Shown here: positions 3,921-9,079 of the stretch, in pieces
How positions within the stretch are numbered: position 1 is the stretch's first letter
Layout: each line of letters opens with the position of its first letter
DNA from: Opitutaceae bacterium
GTDB lineage: Bacteria > Verrucomicrobiota > Verrucomicrobiia > Opitutales > Opitutaceae
Length of the DNA stretch: 48,386 nt
Reading direction: 5' to 3'
Assembly (NCBI GenBank): GCA_014879845.1
Contig: JACSRI010000135.1
Span: 1-48,386, forward strand
Translations under genes and position numbers: made by a program
The notes under the pieces: model-generated
Database searches by the model: none
The model's input: the letters and a program-made list of their open reading frames with translations, nothing else
Told to the model about the DNA's origin: nothing

Positions 3921-4000
3921 ATTGTCATCTATTGGGTGACATTCCCGTCAGACGACACCACGCACTCCCAGCGCCATTGTCATCTATTGGATGACAATGG
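3921..4000. promoter_or_regulatory. Two tandem palindromic operator-like boxes
   Basis: A 21-base unit occurs twice, at 3921-3941 and 3976-3996, differing at one position, with starts 55 bp apart (about five helical turns). The second copy sits in a perfect 11-bp inverted repeat (3974-3984 and 3990-4000) around a 5-bp centre; the first has a 7-bp repeat with one mismatch. They lie between the MFS gene and the first sigma-factor gene. Paired copies with constant spacing suggest binding of a dimeric regulator at two sites. As RNA the second copy would also form a hairpin, but no T-run follows. Confidence 0.55.
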
Positions 4001-4010
4001 CGTCGAAGCC

Positions 4011-4036
4011 GATTCCCTGTTCGGTTTCCCTTCGCG
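4011..4036 (+). promoter_or_regulatory. Shared upstream motif of sigma module 1
   Basis: Contains CCTGTTCGG (4016-4024) followed by TTTCC. Nearly the same block stands upstream of the second sigma gene at 6547-6571. The motif begins 45 bp before the start ATG here and 51 bp before it there. It may be a promoter read by these sigma factors themselves (autoregulation) or a residue of the duplication; the rest of the two upstream regions differs. Confidence 0.4.
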
Positions 4037-4060
4037 GTGCCGGCCAGTAGTGTCGCCACC

Positions 4061-5575
4061 ATGGTCGAGGATTCCGAGCTGCTGCACCGTTTCGCCCGTG
4101 AAGGCGACCAGTCCGCCTTCGCGGAGCTGGTGACGCGGCACCTCGACCGGGCCTACGCCGTGGCGCTGCGCGGCGTCGGCGGCGACACGCACCTTGCCGA
4201 GGATGTGGCGCAGATCGTCTTCACCACGCTGGCGCGCAAGGCGGCTTCGCTCATCGATCACCCCGCCCTCAGTGCGTGGATACACCGCACCACCCACCAT
4301 GTCGCGATCGACGCCGTGCGCTCCGAGGCGCGTCGCCGCGCCCGCGAGGAGAAGGCCCAAGTCATGCACGGACTCCACGACGACCCCGCTCGCGACGCCG
4401 ATTGGGAGAAACTCCGCCCCGACCTCGACGCCGTCCTCGCCGCGCTGCCCGAGCGGGACCGCATCGCGCTCGCCCTGCGCTATTTTGAGGATCGCGCCTT
4501 CGCCGAGATCGGCCGCCGGCTGAGTGTCTCCGAGGATGCCGCGCGCATGCGCGTCGACCGCGCGCTCGAGAAGATGCGCACGCGCCTCGCCCGCCGCGGG
4601 ATTGCCTGCACCGCCGCGGTGCTCGGCGGCGCGCTCACCTCGCCCGGCCTCGTCGCCGCGCCGAGTGGGCTGGCCGGAACCGTCACCACGACCGCTCTCG
4701 GCGCCTCCGCGACCGGCCTCGGAACGGGCGCGATTCTTTCTCTCGTGAGCAGCACCAAACTCGCCACCGGCGTCGCAGCCGCTATCGTCGTCGTCACTGT
4801 CGGAATCGGCATTCTCGATACCGCGAACCGTCGCCACGTCATGGCGACGCGGGCAGCGACGGATGCCGAGAGGCTGGCGGCGTTGACCGCCGAGGTGGAT
4901 GAGCTGGAAAGACAGGTCCGCGACCAAACGGCAGACCAGCCACCCACCCCGGTTCCCGCAGCGAAGCCGGTCGCTACAGACGATCCCGAAGCGCTGGGTC
5001 GCCAGTTTCTGGCCGACCATCCGGCGGTGCACCAGGCGTTCATCCGATCGGTGGATGCGAAAAGCCGCATGCAGTTCGGTGGTCTCTTTCGCGAACTCAG
5101 TCTCTCGTCCACCCAGGTCGACGAATTTCTCACCATTCAGCGTCCCTGGACCGGCAGCTTCAGGGGTCCTTGGGGCCCGAACGGGATCAGTATCATGCTG
5201 CGCCCCGGGCTCAAGACCTCCGGGGAAGAGCGCGATCAACAGCTTTCAGCCGTGCTTGGGGCCGAGGGACTTCGCCGCTTCCGCGAGTATGTCTCCACTT
5301 CTGACGCCAGAAAGTTGGCCATGACAGCGGCGTCCTATCTCGCCTTCGACTCGGAACCCCTCAGCGCTGAACAGATCGAGGAACTCACCCGCAGCATCCA
5401 CGCTCGCTCCTACGGAAACGCTCCAGGAGCAACGACCCAGTATGCTTGGCAGACGATCCTCGAGGATTCCCAAGGTATCCTGACCCCCGCGCAACTTGAG
5501 GCCATCGACTACCTTCACGCGGACGACACCTTCCAGACGGCTGTGCGCGAGCGCGCCTACGCACCCCGTCCATGA
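4061..5575 (+). CDS. Sigma-70 family factor fused to a membrane/extracytoplasmic domain (copy 1)
   Basis: 504 aa. Residues 1-80 form sigma region 2 (GGDTHLAEDVAQIVFTTLAR core helix). Residues 118-178 form sigma region 4 with its helix-turn-helix (LPERDRIALALRYFEDRAFAEI, SEDAARMRVDRALEKMRTRL). An alanine/glycine-rich hydrophobic stretch follows (182-228), then a clear membrane helix (about 233-252) and a ~250-residue tail with short LTPAQ-like motifs (LSSTQ, LSAEQ, LTPAQ). Ordinary ECF sigma factors are under 200 aa, so the tail is an addition that should tether the factor to the membrane with a sensor outside. Start ATG 4061 was chosen over GTG 4037 because it matches the paralogue at 6603. 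The next gene overlaps by 4 nt. Confidence 0.85.
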   Translation: MVEDSELLHRFAREGDQSAFAELVTRHLDRAYAVALRGVGGDTHLAEDVAQIVFTTLARKAASLIDHPALSAWIHRTTHHVAIDAVRSEARRRAREEKAQVMHGLHDDPARDADWEKLRPDLDAVLAALPERDRIALALRYFEDRAFAEIGRRLSVSEDAARMRVDRALEKMRTRLARRGIACTAAVLGGALTSPGLVAAPSGLAGTVTTTALGASATGLGTGAILSLVSSTKLATGVAAAIVVVTVGIGILDTANRRHVMATRAATDAERLAALTAEVDELERQVRDQTADQPPTPVPAAKPVATDDPEALGRQFLADHPAVHQAFIRSVDAKSRMQFGGLFRELSLSSTQVDEFLTIQRPWTGSFRGPWGPNGISIMLRPGLKTSGEERDQQLSAVLGAEGLRRFREYVSTSDARKLAMTAASYLAFDSEPLSAEQIEELTRSIHARSYGNAPGATTQYAWQTILEDSQGILTPAQLEAIDYLHADDTFQTAVRERAYAPRP

Positions 5576-6501
5576 CCTCGCGTCCTGCGGCCATCACCCT
5601 CGGACTCGTCGTCGCCTGCATCGTCGTTGGCGTGCTCGGGAACGCCGCGCGGAACCGACGGGAGGCCGTTGTTTCCATCGCCGAGCGTGCCGCGCACCTC
5701 ACTGCACTGACAGAAAGACGCGACGCTGCCTTGCGGCGGCTCGTCGCATTGCGGGACTCAAGTCCCAAACCCTCTGGCCGCTCCGTCGACGACTCGACGA
5801 CAGGGAAATCATCAGCCGCAGTCCCTGTGGTACCCAAGCCGCCCTCCTACCCATCACGCAGTATCGCAGAAGAACCCATTCTTCAGGTGCTCAAACAGGA
5901 AGCCGATCGCGGGCTCCACCACCTGCGATACGCTTCCTTTGTCCGAAGCTTAGCCCTAACTGAGCACCAAGCCGAAGCCCTCTACCGCCTCGTGCAGGAC
6001 CACGACACACGTCGTCTCGACCTAAACCGCTCGATACAGAACCAGAAACTCAACATCAATGATCCAGCCGCGGTGGCTCTGCGCAACGAAGCTGAGCATG
6101 CCAGAGAAGCGGATCTGCGCGCGCTGCTCGGTGAAGCGGGGCTCGCGCAACTCACGACCTACGAACGCACCGTGAGCCTTCGGCAAACCGTCGCCAACTA
6201 TTCGGTTGCTGCGACGATGGCCGGCGAGCCGCTCAAGGCATCCCAAACCGAAGAGATGATCCGAATCCTCGCCGAATCGACGTCACTCTACCGTGCCGGC
6301 GGCTCGGCGAAGGATGGCGCCGTCGATTGGGAGGAGGCCCTTCCCCGCATGCAGGCACTGCTCTCGCCGTCGCAGTTTGCCCACATCTCTCAGATCGAGC
6401 CGACAGCGCTCGGTGGCTCCGCTTCGCGGTTCATGATCACGTTCCTCTCCGCCGCCCAAAGCGCCGCGCGCGAGGCCGACCCAACGACCGTGAGACCCTG
6501 A
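5572..6501 (+). CDS. Membrane partner of sigma factor 1
   Basis: 309 aa. One N-terminal membrane helix (about residues 7-25), a charged coiled-coil-like segment, a low-complexity linker, then a helical domain of about 200 residues. This domain resembles the tail of the upstream sigma factor: a FVRSLALTEHQAEAL segment aligns with LFRELSLSSTQVDEF, and a LLGEAGLAQL...YERT segment aligns with LGAEGLRRFREY. The ATG overlaps the sigma stop codon (ATGA), so the proteins are made in a fixed ratio and probably pair through the shared domain. A role as anti-sigma partner or co-sensor is inference; no zinc-finger anti-sigma motif is visible. Confidence 0.7.
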   Translation: MTSRPAAITLGLVVACIVVGVLGNAARNRREAVVSIAERAAHLTALTERRDAALRRLVALRDSSPKPSGRSVDDSTTGKSSAAVPVVPKPPSYPSRSIAEEPILQVLKQEADRGLHHLRYASFVRSLALTEHQAEALYRLVQDHDTRRLDLNRSIQNQKLNINDPAAVALRNEAEHAREADLRALLGEAGLAQLTTYERTVSLRQTVANYSVAATMAGEPLKASQTEEMIRILAESTSLYRAGGSAKDGAVDWEEALPRMQALLSPSQFAHISQIEPTALGGSASRFMITFLSAAQSAAREADPTTVRP

Positions 6502-6546
6502 GCCCACGCGCGACCCCGCGCTCCCCCGGGCGAGAAACTCCGTGCA

Positions 6547-6571
6547 GAAATCCTGTTCGGATTCTCGTCCG
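6547..6571 (+). promoter_or_regulatory. Shared upstream motif of sigma module 2
   Basis: Contains CCTGTTCGG at 6552-6560 followed by ATTC, matching the block at 4011-4036 upstream of the first sigma gene. It lies in the 101-bp gap between the two modules. The palindromic boxes present before module 1 are absent here, so the two copies probably share only part of their control. Confidence 0.4.
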
Positions 6572-6602
6572 GCGGCTGCCATGATGTGGAGCAAGTCCCA
6601 CC

Positions 6603-8147
6603 ATGGAACCCGACGATGCCGAACTGCTGCGGCGCCACCTCGCCGACCCGAACTCGGATGCGTTCGCGCAGTTGGTGGCCCGGCACATCGATCGCATCTA
6701 CGGCGTGGCCCTGCGCCAGGTGGGCGGCGACACCCACCTGGCGCAGGATGTCACGCAGCGGGTATTCGCAGATCTGGCACGCAAGGCGCCGTCTCTCGCT
6801 GATCGGCCCACGCTCGGCGGCTGGCTCTACCGCAGCACTCAATTTGCCGGCAGCGAGGTGGTGCGCACGGAGCGTCGTCGTCGCGCCCGCGAACAGGAGG
6901 CCTACGCCATGCAGGACATCCACGATGACAACGATCCACAGGCCTCCATCAGCTGGAACGCGCTGGGGCCGGTACTCGACGAGGTTATGGCCGGCCTCAA
7001 CGACCGCGATCGCGATGCCGTCGCGATGCGATTCTTCGAGAACCGTGCTTTCGTGGCGATCGGTGCAGCCTTGCACACCTCCGAGGATGCCGCGCGCATG
7101 CGTGTGGATCGCGCGCTTGAGAAGATGCGTACGCTCCTCGCCCGCCGCGGCATCACCTGCACGGCCGCCGCGCTCGGCGGCGTGCTCGCGGCGCCGGGCC
7201 TCGTGGCCGCGCCGAGTGGGCTGGCCGCGAGCATCACCACCTCCGCACTCACCGCTTCCGCCGGTGCCGTCGCCGGAGTGGGAGCCGGAACGGTCGTCCA
7301 TCTCATGAGCAGCACCAAGCTCGTCACCGGCCTCGCCGCCGCGATCGTCGTCCTCGCTGTGGGGACGGCAACGTATGAGACACGCACGTACGCCACGCCC
7401 GTCGTGGTCACGACACCCGTCGACGGGCCGGCGAGCGCCGAGTTGTCGGCGATCGAAGCGAAGACCATCGCCGTCGTCGCGGAGACGGAAGCGATCCGCG
7501 CCGAACTCACCACGCTGCGCACGATGCGAGCCCAGGCCATGGCGCGTCTCGCAGTCCCGCAGCGTTCGACCGACGTCGCCGCGGAGGAACTCGGACGCGC
7601 CTTCATGGAACGCCACCCCGAGGTGCGCCAGGCTCTCCACGAGTGGACGGATGCGAAGACACGGTTGGACTATGGCGCGCTGTTTCGCCAGCTCCAGCTC
7701 ACGCCCGCCCAAATCGACGCATTTCTCGCTCTCAAGCGCACGACGGGGCGCGTGAGCGGGAGCTGGGGTCCGAACGACGCCACGATGACCCTGCGCGCCG
7801 AGGGCGCCGACTCAACCAACGACATCAAGTCGATCCTCGGCGACGAGGCCTTCGCAGTCTATCGCGACTACGAACGCACGAAGATGGAGCGCCGCGCGAG
7901 CATGATGGCTGCAAGTTACCTCAGCTTCACCGACGAGCCGCTCACGACCGTGCAGACCGACGAGCTGACGCGCATCCTCCAAGAGAGTCGCCTGCGTCAA
8001 CGGCCGGGCACCGGAGCCGAAAACTACGATTGGGACCGTGTGATGGCCGAGGCATCCGGTATCTTCACCGAGTCTCAGCGCCCGGTCCTGGAGGCACTGC
8101 GCGCCGACGACTGCCACCGTGCGGCCCTCAGCCGATCCATGCCATGA
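6603..8147 (+). CDS. Sigma-70 family factor fused to a membrane/extracytoplasmic domain (copy 2)
   Basis: 514 aa, clearly a paralogue of the gene at 4061 along its full length. Sigma region 2 spans about 13-80 (GGDTHLAQDVTQRVF), region 4 about 120-178 (LNDRDRDAVAMRFFEN, TSEDAARMRVDRALEKM). Then come the hydrophobic stretch (184-235, with APGLVAAPSGLAA shared with copy 1), a membrane helix (about 239-257), a coiled-coil-like linker (278-312) and the extracytoplasmic domain (330-514) with LTPAQ at 367-371. The DNA-binding parts are better conserved than the linker and tail, which fits two sigma factors with related targets but different inputs. The ATG at 6603 follows CACC and is the only reasonable start. 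Confidence 0.85.
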   Translation: MEPDDAELLRRHLADPNSDAFAQLVARHIDRIYGVALRQVGGDTHLAQDVTQRVFADLARKAPSLADRPTLGGWLYRSTQFAGSEVVRTERRRRAREQEAYAMQDIHDDNDPQASISWNALGPVLDEVMAGLNDRDRDAVAMRFFENRAFVAIGAALHTSEDAARMRVDRALEKMRTLLARRGITCTAAALGGVLAAPGLVAAPSGLAASITTSALTASAGAVAGVGAGTVVHLMSSTKLVTGLAAAIVVLAVGTATYETRTYATPVVVTTPVDGPASAELSAIEAKTIAVVAETEAIRAELTTLRTMRAQAMARLAVPQRSTDVAAEELGRAFMERHPEVRQALHEWTDAKTRLDYGALFRQLQLTPAQIDAFLALKRTTGRVSGSWGPNDATMTLRAEGADSTNDIKSILGDEAFAVYRDYERTKMERRASMMAASYLSFTDEPLTTVQTDELTRILQESRLRQRPGTGAENYDWDRVMAEASGIFTESQRPVLEALRADDCHRAALSRSMP

Positions 8148-9079
8148 AACCACGCACCGGCTTCGCGCTGACTCTGTCGATCGTCCTGCTCGCCGCTGCC
8201 GCCGTGGGCTGGAACCACCGCCGGCTCGCAAAGCGCACCGCGCCGCCGCCGGCTGCCCGATCGGATTTCCGCGACGCGGACGACGCGGCGCGCGCCCTCA
8301 ATCGCGCCCGCCTGCAACTCGCCGGCGCGGAACTCGCCCGCGACGAACAGCGCCGGATGCTCGAGCGCGAACGCGGTGCACCCACCTCCTCGACACCACC
8401 GCTGCACCTGCCCGGCGAGATGGATGCACTACAGCGCATGCTCCACGATCCGGAGTTGAACCTGCTCCAGCTCGCCGCCGGGAGGGCCGCACGCACCGTG
8501 CAGTACGGCACGCTCGTGCGCCAGCTCGGCCTGTCGCCGGAACAAACGCTGGAACTGGATCGCATCCTCGCGGCCAAGGAGATGCGCGAGATGGACGTCT
8601 ATGCCTCCGGCCGCGCGCAAGGTCTCGCCACCACCGACCCGGCCCTGGCGGCACTCAACCGCGAGATCGAGGCCGACACGGAGAAGGCACTGCGCCCGCT
8701 CCTCGGCGATGAGGGTTATGCGCTGTTTCAGGAGCACGATCGCACCGCCATGCTCCGCCTCACCGTGAGCAGCCTCGCCGGAGCCGCGACCGTAGCCGGT
8801 GCTCCGCTCTCGCCGGCGCAATCCGAGGCGCTCGTGCAGATCCTCGCCGAAAGCACACCCGGCTACGCCCAAGGCCGACGCGTGAAGACGTCGCAGGTGG
8901 ACTGGAGTGCGGCCGATCTGCGTATCCAGGCATCGCTCACGCCGGCGCAGTGGGAACAGGTTCGCTGGACGGAGCCAAGCGGACCAAAGGGCGTCGGCGG
9001 ACGCCACTTCGCCCACATGTCCTCGATCATCCGCGCCGCGCGCCAAGCCGACGCTGCAGCCGCTACTCCCCGCCCTTGA
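8144..9079 (+). CDS. Membrane partner of sigma factor 2
   Basis: 311 aa, a paralogue of the gene at 5572. One membrane helix at the N-terminus (about residues 6-23), an Arg/Glu-rich helical linker, then the shared extracytoplasmic domain with LSPEQ, LSPAQ and LTPAQ motifs and an LLGDEGYALFQEHDRT segment. The frame stays open far upstream (to 7643), but only the ATG at 8144 gives a signal/anchor helix and the same 4-nt ATGA overlap as in module 1. It ends 17 nt inside the converging minus-strand gene at 9063. Function unknown; by position and shared domain it should associate with the sigma factor upstream. Confidence 0.7.
   Translation: MKPRTGFALTLSIVLLAAAAVGWNHRRLAKRTAPPPAARSDFRDADDAARALNRARLQLAGAELARDEQRRMLERERGAPTSSTPPLHLPGEMDALQRMLHDPELNLLQLAAGRAARTVQYGTLVRQLGLSPEQTLELDRILAAKEMREMDVYASGRAQGLATTDPALAALNREIEADTEKALRPLLGDEGYALFQEHDRTAMLRLTVSSLAGAATVAGAPLSPAQSEALVQILAESTPGYAQGRRVKTSQVDWSAADLRIQASLTPAQWEQVRWTEPSGPKGVGGRHFAHMSSIIRAARQADAAAATPRP

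Follow-up and report, generated by a model that had tools for sequence, protein, structure and literature searches.

Two tandem operons, S1–M1 (positions 4061–6501) and S2–M2 (6603–9079), in the window, by which we mean the whole 48,386-nucleotide stretch of Opitutaceae DNA that was analysed, probably encode self-amplifying membrane-tethered sigma factors that are controlled by a periplasmic pair of tails, one carried by the sigma factor itself and the other supplied by its partner gene. At the sequence level this scheme is backed by the domains found, a hydrophobic helix, homology between tail and partner, pairing of tails with partners by type and an upstream motif that is nearly confined to genes of the family.

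Two operons encode predicted membrane-anchored ECF-type sigma factors

A 4-nt ATGA overlap joins the sigma gene and the partner gene in both pairs, and together with the gene coordinates it bears out the duplicated two-gene module with 4-nt overlaps that had been described in an earlier note on this DNA. S1 (504 aa, 4061–5575; Pfam, BLASTP and AlphaFold2) and S2 (514 aa, 6603–8147; Pfam and BLASTP), which like all window features described here lie on the forward strand, are predicted membrane-anchored ECF-type sigma factors. Both contain sigma regions 2 and 4, as had been claimed: region 2 covers residues 23–92 of S1 (4127–4336; PF04542, E=2.6e-11) and 24–92 of S2 (6672–6878; PF04542, E=5.7e-6), while region 4 covers residues 125–173 of S1 (4433–4579; PF04545, E=5e-12) and 128–176 of S2 (6984–7130; PF04545, E=5.3e-9). 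All four matches exceed the Pfam cut-off and were the only sigma regions that Pfam found in the two proteins, which places them in the ECF group; TIGR02937 scored 75.9 bits for S1 and 52.6 bits for S2 (cut-off 42.9). Regions 2 and 4 were confidently modelled by AlphaFold2 in S1, and Foldseek matched this model to the solved ECF sigma factors SigW, SigK, AlgU and SigE (E about 1e-5 to 2e-4).

The sigma part of S1 is followed by an A/G/T-rich linker (residues 181–234, 4601–4762; low model confidence) with an AP-x-GL motif in which P and G are conserved, by a predicted membrane helix at the hydropathy maximum (residues 235–253, 4763–4819; KD 2.07 over 19) and by a helical tail with L[ST]xxQ-type motifs (residues 309–499, 4985–5557), predicted to be extracytoplasmic. 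S2 likewise has a predicted membrane helix at residues about 239–258 (7317–7376; KD 1.84) and a helical, predicted extracytoplasmic tail at residues 329–510 (7587–8132). The S1 maximum falls inside the interval (residues 233–257) in which the earlier note had placed a helix, although the hydrophobic stretch that it described ahead of the helix, the A/G/T-rich one, proved just mildly hydrophobic. Across 91 distinct homologues the helix zone reached a KD of at least 1.6 in 84 and at least 1.4 in 90, and among 33 non-family sigma matches of the same genome, taken as controls, one (C98) attained KD 1.6 past the start of region 2. A sigma factor with its own anchor and outer tail, as first proposed, is thus supported as a prediction by hydropathy and by the homologues. 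The AlphaFold2 model of S1 has a helix at residues 239–292, with low confidence across residues 199–260 (pLDDT <50 at 199–209 and 212–250); block means in the membrane part (231–260) were only 36–49, so the model by itself does not establish the S1 membrane helix, and those of the tail (309–499) were 51–95, being at least 85 in 12 of 20 blocks. Hydropathy and the known biology of the TonB_C, ExbD and SLBB domains suggest that the sigma part would be cytoplasmic and the tail periplasmic.

S1 and S2 are 45% identical (BLASTP, E=7e-118) and M1 and M2 38% over 188 aa. Identity between S1 and S2 was 59% in the sigma part and 62% in the linker and membrane helix, against 15% in the stalk and 38% in the tail, and for this reason the earlier statement that the DNA-binding parts were kept while the sensors diverged is right. 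The two sigma factors were joined at 83% on a quick tree, a level of support that makes their direct duplication likely, not certain.

The partner proteins are twins of the sigma tails

M1 (309 aa, 5572–6501) and M2 (311 aa, 8144–9079) are predicted single-pass proteins with one hydrophobic stretch each, at residues 5–23, leaving 4 residues ahead of it. BLASTP aligned S1 with M1 (E=2e-9) across helix, stalk and tail, and S2 with M2 (E=8e-13) inside the tail. Judged by these alignments, each partner is a sigma-less twin of its own sigma factor's tail, a homology that the earlier note overlooked. The M2 model was all-helical (block means 67–96 for residues 101–280); its Foldseek search returned nothing at E<=0.001 (best 0.092, 3g6i), and its VIA-align Z scores of at most 7.2 are at a level common for helical models, so neither search singled out a known fold for the tail.

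A Verrucomicrobiota family with exchangeable tails

Long sigma proteins of this kind had been mentioned for Verrucomicrobia, and relatives were indeed found across Verrucomicrobiota, forming a family with exchangeable tails (helical, TonB_C, ExbD, SLBB, PDZ and others) that numbers seven members in the window's genome and at least ten in one relative. From the 80 loci of one search, 36 (L115–L149 and L152) were used as family, the others being other ECFs. Among 44 non-helical tails there were 13 TonB_C, 2 ExbD, 1 SLBB, 1 PDZ and 1 secretin (44 of 48 tails typed, duplicates and one cut tail excluded), frequencies that are biased because most loci were chosen by similarity to S1; the profile for helical tails yields inflated E-values, having been iterated over this same set.

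A coupled partner gene, taken as one that begins between -60 and +150 nt, followed, as a raw count, 45 of the 84 family sigma genes with room downstream. Not counted among the 84 are 5 rows truncated at a contig end and 4 that lacked downstream room, and one apparent partner (L133:3010) that was the next sigma gene was counted as none. In the window's own genome five of the seven family sigma genes had a coupled gene (P0005 and P0006 had no partner). The coupled membrane partner proposed earlier is therefore supported by both window pairs and by these homologues, the majority of which do have the second gene; its absence from 39 of the 84 shows that a partner is not obligatory.

Nearly all coupled partners (44/45) matched the tail of some family sigma factor at E<=1e-3 in plain BLASTP, a second hydrophobic stretch was present in 5/45, and the shortest partners (96–111 aa) were scarcely more than stalk. 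The 45 pairs of sigma tail and partner were helical with helical (23), TonB_C with NTF2-like (9), NTF2-like with NTF2-like (3), ExbD with NTF2-like (2), A with B (2), B with A (2) and pairs with an unclassified member (4), where 'NTF2-like', 'A' and 'B' are labels assigned in this analysis (one DUF4878 match, E=0.0002). Pairing by type is non-random, helical tails having a helical partner in 23 of 23 cases. The A–B and B–A pairs combine identical domain types and differ in which of the two bears the sigma part; each arrangement was seen at two loci, L149 and L152 being closely related. At L094 (733 aa) the sigma part and both tail domains lie in a single chain, with no partner gene.

A promoter-like motif precedes most family genes

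The promoter-like motif of S1 (4012–4048) consists of a TGTTCGG block and then a -10-like block, with 12 nt from its end to the ATG (model R1 E=0.0017 in the window; two-block score 33.9), and that of S2 (6549–6586) ends 16 nt before the ATG (E=0.00049; score 27.2). Model R1, built from 42 sites of other genomes that were picked for clean copies among 72, had exactly two matches at E<=1 in the 48-kb window, namely these two. Of the genome's seven family genes, six had two-block scores of 10.9–33.9 and the seventh, P0006, scored -2.9, which is no better than the best control; 33 non-family sigma genes of the same genome scored at most -1.0 (best C106; next -10.7) and the 35 other called ORFs of the window at most -8.4.

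In seven relatives, 28 of the 29 matches at E<=0.01 sat 43–57 nt before a family gene, and the remaining one 288 nt before a family gene that has its own nearer copy; since 15 of the 29 are training sites of R1, the figure for the non-training matches is 13 of 14 at 43–57 nt. The other 22 of the 51 rows were weaker (E 0.01–0.3); 13 of them were examined, of which 3 preceded family genes and 10 lay farther than about 1.5 kb from any family sigma. With 150 of 2837 candidates across the window's genome scored, R1 gave at least 20 matches at E<=10, and three of these precede family genes (S1, S2 and P0008). The seven other loci of the first ten lay inside called ORFs (five) or between ORFs (two, with no convincing gene downstream, one having a called 68-aa ORF 33 nt on), and the last ten had no family sigma within the locus. 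A wider R1 regulon was looked for in these matches, where strong copies were essentially confined to family sigma genes. We infer that the family sigma factors may read this motif and so activate their own genes. The earlier idea of separate inputs to related regulons is weakened, because much the same motif stands before most members whatever their tail, so that a shared promoter specificity is possible.

Comparison with known systems

The arrangement does differ from the usual sigma/anti-sigma pair, as had been said of this DNA, but it is not the first case of a membrane-fused ECF sigma factor, IutY/ECF243, ECF48, ECF52 and ECF53 being known (PMC8999054, from the portions consulted). IutY of Pseudomonas putida (ECF243), a sigma factor fused to a membrane anti-sigma, resembles S1 and S2 in holding a cytoplasmic ECF sigma and a periplasmic part in one polypeptide; its periplasmic part, however, is the anti-sigma domain of cell-surface signalling, whereas S1 and S2 have the coupled tail twin instead, and a Pfam search up to E=10 gave no FecR match in S1, S2, M1 or M2. 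ECF52 (SCO4117), ECF48 and ECF53 of Actinobacteria also carry C-terminal membrane helices, with an outer domain in ECF52, and proteolytic release has been proposed for them (PMC5826349, PMC8999054). These three groups hold a zinc-finger (ZAS-type) domain that lies between the sigma part and the membrane, while S1 has one Cys (183) and S2 two (186 and 504), with no zinc-finger match in Pfam up to E=10. Published accounts confine ECF52 to Actinobacteria, and the consulted portions of these descriptions mention no tail-twin partner (PMC5826349, PMC8999054). ECF sigma factors of Tuwongella immobilis (Planctomycetes, a neighbouring phylum) occur in Triton- or SDS-soluble and not in soluble fractions, and are linked to WD40-repeat domains, again with no tail-twin partner mentioned in the portions consulted (PMC8567305). 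A targeted literature search, covering partial texts, found no description of this Verrucomicrobiota sigma family.

The helical tail gave hhalign probabilities of 71 and 90% (two directions) against CnrX-like Metal_resist/LTXXQ proteins, a comparison set filtered for L[ST]xxQ, and eight control profiles gave at most 8.8%. In CnrYXH-type systems the anchored, helical protein CnrX serves an ECF sigma factor as its periplasmic sensor, and sensor, anti-sigma and sigma are made as individual proteins, whereas in S1 and S2 sensor and sigma form one chain and no anti-sigma was seen. PF07813 and PF13801 (LTXXQ/Metal_resist) had no match up to E=10 in S1, S2, M1 or M2; the S2 tail alone scored 11.5 bits (cut-off 24.3), and among 71 members three touched LTXXQ (best E 0.043) and one Metal_resist (0.0084). 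A sequence search of the PDB ranked the CnrX chain 3zg1 first (E=0.0062), on the stalk side only and among coiled coils, and was for that reason not counted as evidence. The Foldseek top 50 for the S1 model shows sigma factors and says nothing on the tail fold. Metal sensing by analogy with CnrX was considered and is not supported, since the tail has no conserved His, Cys or Met column (highest conservation 30%, 4% and 14%, respectively; n=77). Separately, CnrX-like Metal_resist/LTXXQ proteins adjoin soluble ECF genes in relatives.

Proposed mechanism and alternative explanations

In the proposed scheme, a single helix would hold S1 and S2 in the inner membrane, leaving the sigma part on the cytoplasmic side and the stalk and helical tail on the periplasmic side; M1 and M2, each produced by translational coupling from the operon of its sigma factor, would adjoin and pair with the sigma tail. 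The tail pair would read an envelope condition and, on changing or dissociating, render the sigma part usable, most likely through trimming of the tail and then cleavage of the membrane helix by a site-2 (M50) protease, with use while still tethered a less likely route. The freed sigma factor would transcribe its own operon from the upstream motif, giving more sigma and more partner, and hence an amplifying yet self-capped switch. Binding between tail and partner is suggested by their homology, which does not amount to proof of binding, and proteolytic release is likewise presumed; an M50 protease is present in the window's genome, although this says nothing specific, as such proteases were found in 14 of 14 control genomes.

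ToxR/CadC-type membrane activators act while still membrane-tethered, and the sigma factor might similarly work uncleaved, the tail pair altering just its oligomeric state or reach. The modelling of membrane segment and stalk as one helix (the first part at low confidence) and the likeness of the tails to pairing modules speak for such a route, yet a sigma factor must bind core RNA polymerase and then let the polymerase leave, and IutY, the best-studied fused sigma, is activated by cleavage by Prc and RseP (PMC5411451, in part), which makes activity without release unlikely, if the least improbable of the alternatives. Somewhat more doubtful is that the motif is bound by the housekeeping polymerase, or by a regulator shared across the family, and is not the promoter of these sigma factors. 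Its second block (TTAT/CTAT) does resemble ordinary -10 boxes, its reading by these sigma factors is our inference and one of the seven family genes scored like a control; against this, it is missing before the other sigma genes and window ORFs that were scored, it is almost exclusive to family genes in the seven relatives, and autoregulation is said to be common among ECF sigma factors (PMC5826349, in the part consulted).

A cytoplasmic tail, with the A/G/T-rich residues 181–230 and the helix at 235–253 forming a membrane hairpin, appears very unlikely: the linker zone attains KD 1.6 in 26 of the 91 homologues, but its median is 1.50 against 1.94 in the helix zone, the same tail sits behind an N-terminal helix in the partners, and sibling tails include TonB_C, ExbD, SLBB, PDZ and secretin domains, which have a periplasmic or envelope role. 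We give slightly less credence still to M1 and M2 being usual anti-sigma factors that bind the cytoplasmic sigma part and are destroyed on a signal. Their genes lie immediately downstream with a 4-nt overlap and encode a membrane anchor, and anti-sigma genes generally do adjoin the sigma gene, the membrane-anchored kind being the most widespread (PMC8103513, in part). Nevertheless, the hydrophobic helix is preceded by a median of 5 residues in 44 partners, too few, in the predicted orientation, for a classical anti-sigma domain; neither protein has a Pfam family above cut-off (one spurious M1 match, E=0.15) or an NCBIfam family at E<=1, and homology was found solely to the sigma's own tail, so a classical anti-sigma role was rejected.

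Implications

If the scheme of a tethered sigma factor controlled by a pair of tails is right, sigma activity would be governed without an anti-sigma factor, through a twin of the tethered sigma's own sensor, with sensors swapped across the family, and the tails listed here, including TonB- and ExbD-like ones, would be candidate envelope-sensing modules. More tentatively, Verrucomicrobiota may possess a large class of transmembrane sigma factors that are built as one chain, have interchangeable periplasmic tails and read one promoter class, checked by sigma-less tail twins and not by anti-sigmas. Were this true, a single self-amplifying type of promoter would receive many envelope inputs, and the resulting network would be combinatorial, with cross-activation possible among the members that a genome carries. 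Because the motif is sharply defined, autoregulation and cross-talk can both be tested directly, and this in a phylum in which gene regulation has received little study.

Two tandem operons and the anatomy of their sigma factors

The window corresponds to contig C210 in a genome of 5.4 Mb and 277 contigs and carries two tandem operons on the forward strand, in each of which the sigma gene (S1, 4061–5575; S2, 6603–8147) overlaps by four bases with a partner gene (M1, 5572–6501; M2, 8144–9079). Pfam and NCBIfam scans identified ECF sigma regions 2 and 4 in both S1 and S2, and the S1 model matched solved ECF sigma factors including SigW, SigK, AlgU and SigE (Foldseek). Region 4 is followed by a conserved A/G/T-rich linker (residues 181–234 in S1), a hydrophobic stretch, a stalk and a helical tail; the single strongly hydrophobic stretch lies at residues 235–253 in S1 (hydropathy score, KD, 2.07) and 239–257 in S2 (KD 1.84). 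In the AlphaFold2 model of S1, confidence is good for both sigma regions and for most of the tail, and low for residues 212–260, including the predicted membrane segment. Identity between S1 and S2 is 59% in the sigma part, 62% in the linker and helix, 15% in the stalk and 38% in the tail. The helix zone reached KD 1.6 in 84 of 91 distinct homologues, compared with one of 33 non-family sigma matches in the window's genome, scored after the start of region 2. One non-family match on contig C98 (7651–7854, minus strand; locus L038, 3652–3855) lies in a frame that continues for more than 500 residues and includes a very hydrophobic stretch (KD 2.67); it is perhaps another membrane-fused sigma factor, or a frame artefact.

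The partner as a twin of the tail

No convincing family was found for M1 or M2 in Pfam or NCBIfam. BLASTP matched M1 to S1 across helix, stalk and tail (E=2e-9) and M2 to S2 inside the tail (E=8e-13); judged by this homology, the partners are twins of the sigma factors' own tails. M1 and M2 each have one hydrophobic stretch (residues 5–23), and a median of five residues precedes the helix in partners, too few to accommodate an anti-sigma domain in the cytoplasm, provided that the partners are oriented N-in, C-out.

Of the family sigma factors (Verrucomicrobiota sigmas like S1 and S2, with varying tails), 84 are followed by 400 bases or more of sequence, and 45 of these are coupled to a partner that bears an N-terminal helix (one false partner row counted as 'none'). 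A partner is present for 23 of the 42 helical-tailed sigmas and for 22 of the 42 whose tails are of another kind. All but one of these partners (44/45) have a match among the tails of the family sigma factors, and pairing is by type: helical with helical (23), TonB_C with NTF2-like (9), NTF2-like with NTF2-like (3), ExbD with NTF2-like (2), A with B (2) and B with A (2), A, B and NTF2-like being our labels for tail domain types; four pairs include an unclassified member. In the A/B pairs (L132 and L128 versus L149 and L152) the two domains are unchanged and the sigma is joined to the opposite one, while at locus L094 a sigma and two helical tail domains form a single 733-aa chain and the partner gene is absent. 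The swap and the fusion alike point to direct contact between tails.

The window's genome encodes seven family sigma factors: S1, S2, P0005 and P0006 (both C61), P0007 (C41), P0008 (C63) and P0009 (C225), five of them beside a coupled partner. P0006 (L030, 9193–11648) lacks a tail twin; downstream of it lie two small genes, of 102 and 145 aa, which by eye we take to resemble a toxin–antitoxin pair. Contig C73 (L034, 4051–5843) has an operon of two tail twins with a 4-nt overlap, without a sigma part or the family upstream motif, and lone twins occur on C237 and C242, two contigs on which no family sigma was found.

Spread of the family and exchange of tails

S1 was matched at E≤1e-30 in 63 of 150 genomes and 34 of 49 genera of the window's taxonomic family (its own genome counted), and a sigma-plus-helix profile (E≤1e-45) in 16 of 240 genomes of a phylum-wide draw, under four family codes. 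Scanning of 44 non-helical tails identified TonB_C (13), ExbD (2), and SLBB, PDZ, secretin and carboxypeptidase-regulatory domains (one each). These domains have periplasm or envelope roles, which is the best evidence here that the tail would lie on the periplasmic side. ExbD-, secretin- and SLBB-like outer tails are carried by sigma factors of L141 and L147; L148; and L091 (5119–6405).

A quick tree built from 91 sigma domains requires at least 18 changes of tail type, against a minimum of 5 and an average of 29 for shuffled labels; the tails therefore appear to be inherited yet repeatedly swapped. In a relative (G023, contig C102, ~39,650–77,200; L120, L131, L091) family sigma genes with differing tails form an array, with ten motif matches at E≤0.01 inside ~38 kb.

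A motif upstream of the family sigma genes

Most members are preceded by a TTTTGTnCGGTTT-like block, a spacer and a GGCGGnTGTTAT-like block ending ~14 nt ahead of the ATG; the first block scored at least 10 of 12 in 53 of 92 distinct upstream regions (shuffles, 0.16%). R1, a motif model built from 42 sites in other genomes, matched the window only at 6549–6586 (E=0.00049), just before S2, and 4012–4048 (E=0.0017), just before S1. Two-block scores were 33.9, 27.2, 23.5, 15.7, 12.5 and 10.9 for six of the seven family genes in the genome and -2.9 for P0006; the 33 other sigma genes scored -1.0 or lower (next best -10.7), and the 35 other called window ORFs -8.4 or lower. No score above -19.3 was seen for the sigma-less pair or the two single twins. 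Among the 29 R1 matches at E≤0.01 in seven relatives, 28 sit 43–57 nt ahead of a family sigma gene. Training sites of R1 account for 15 of the 29 matches, and 13 of the remaining 14 are placed in this way too. Among the R1 matches examined in the window, its genome and these relatives, no strong site stood ahead of other genes. A class of ECF promoters under autoregulation would be expected to show this pattern; the 5' leader would be very short.

The stretch that separates the S1 motif from the preceding transporter gene contains a perfect 11-bp inverted repeat (CCATTGTCATC-TATTG-GATGACAATGG, 3974–4000) and a second, imperfect copy at 3922–3941. The perfect repeat is not an obvious terminator because no T-run follows it, and it could be an operator.

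Comparison with known systems and proposed mechanism

ECF sigma factors fused to membrane parts have already been described (IutY, ECF52/SCO4117, ECF48 and ECF53; PMC5411451, PMC5826349, PMC8999054), IutY combining a sigma with a periplasmic anti-sigma domain and being released by Prc and RseP (PMC5411451). The zinc-finger feature of such proteins was looked for in S1 and S2 and not found, nor was the FecR feature. The helical tail appears to resemble CnrX/Spy-like Metal_resist/LTXXQ proteins remotely, below Pfam cut-offs; hhalign gave probabilities of 71 and 90% in the two directions against a set of these pre-filtered by L[ST]xxQ, and at most 8.8% for eight control profiles. CnrX-like Metal_resist genes adjoin ordinary ECF sigma genes at L020 (C67, window's genome), L256, L258, L263 and elsewhere, a separate-gene counterpart of the fused S1/S2 design. 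An ECF sigma gene lay within the same 3-kb stretch at 10 of 11 distinct Metal_resist places examined (C67 being included on account of its ECF gene); a periplasmic sensor that is a separate protein elsewhere may therefore be fused to the sigma in this family.

The homology, the pairing by type and the upstream motif are read directly from sequence; topology, binding, cleavage and use of the promoter are inferred. In our preferred reading, the sigma factor would be tethered in the membrane with its tail held by the twin partner, and a signal would disturb this tail–twin pair. Trimming together with a site-2 cleavage would then probably free the sigma; the genome has an M50 protease, but such proteases are universal. 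Once freed, the sigma would transcribe its own operon, yielding more sigma and more twin.
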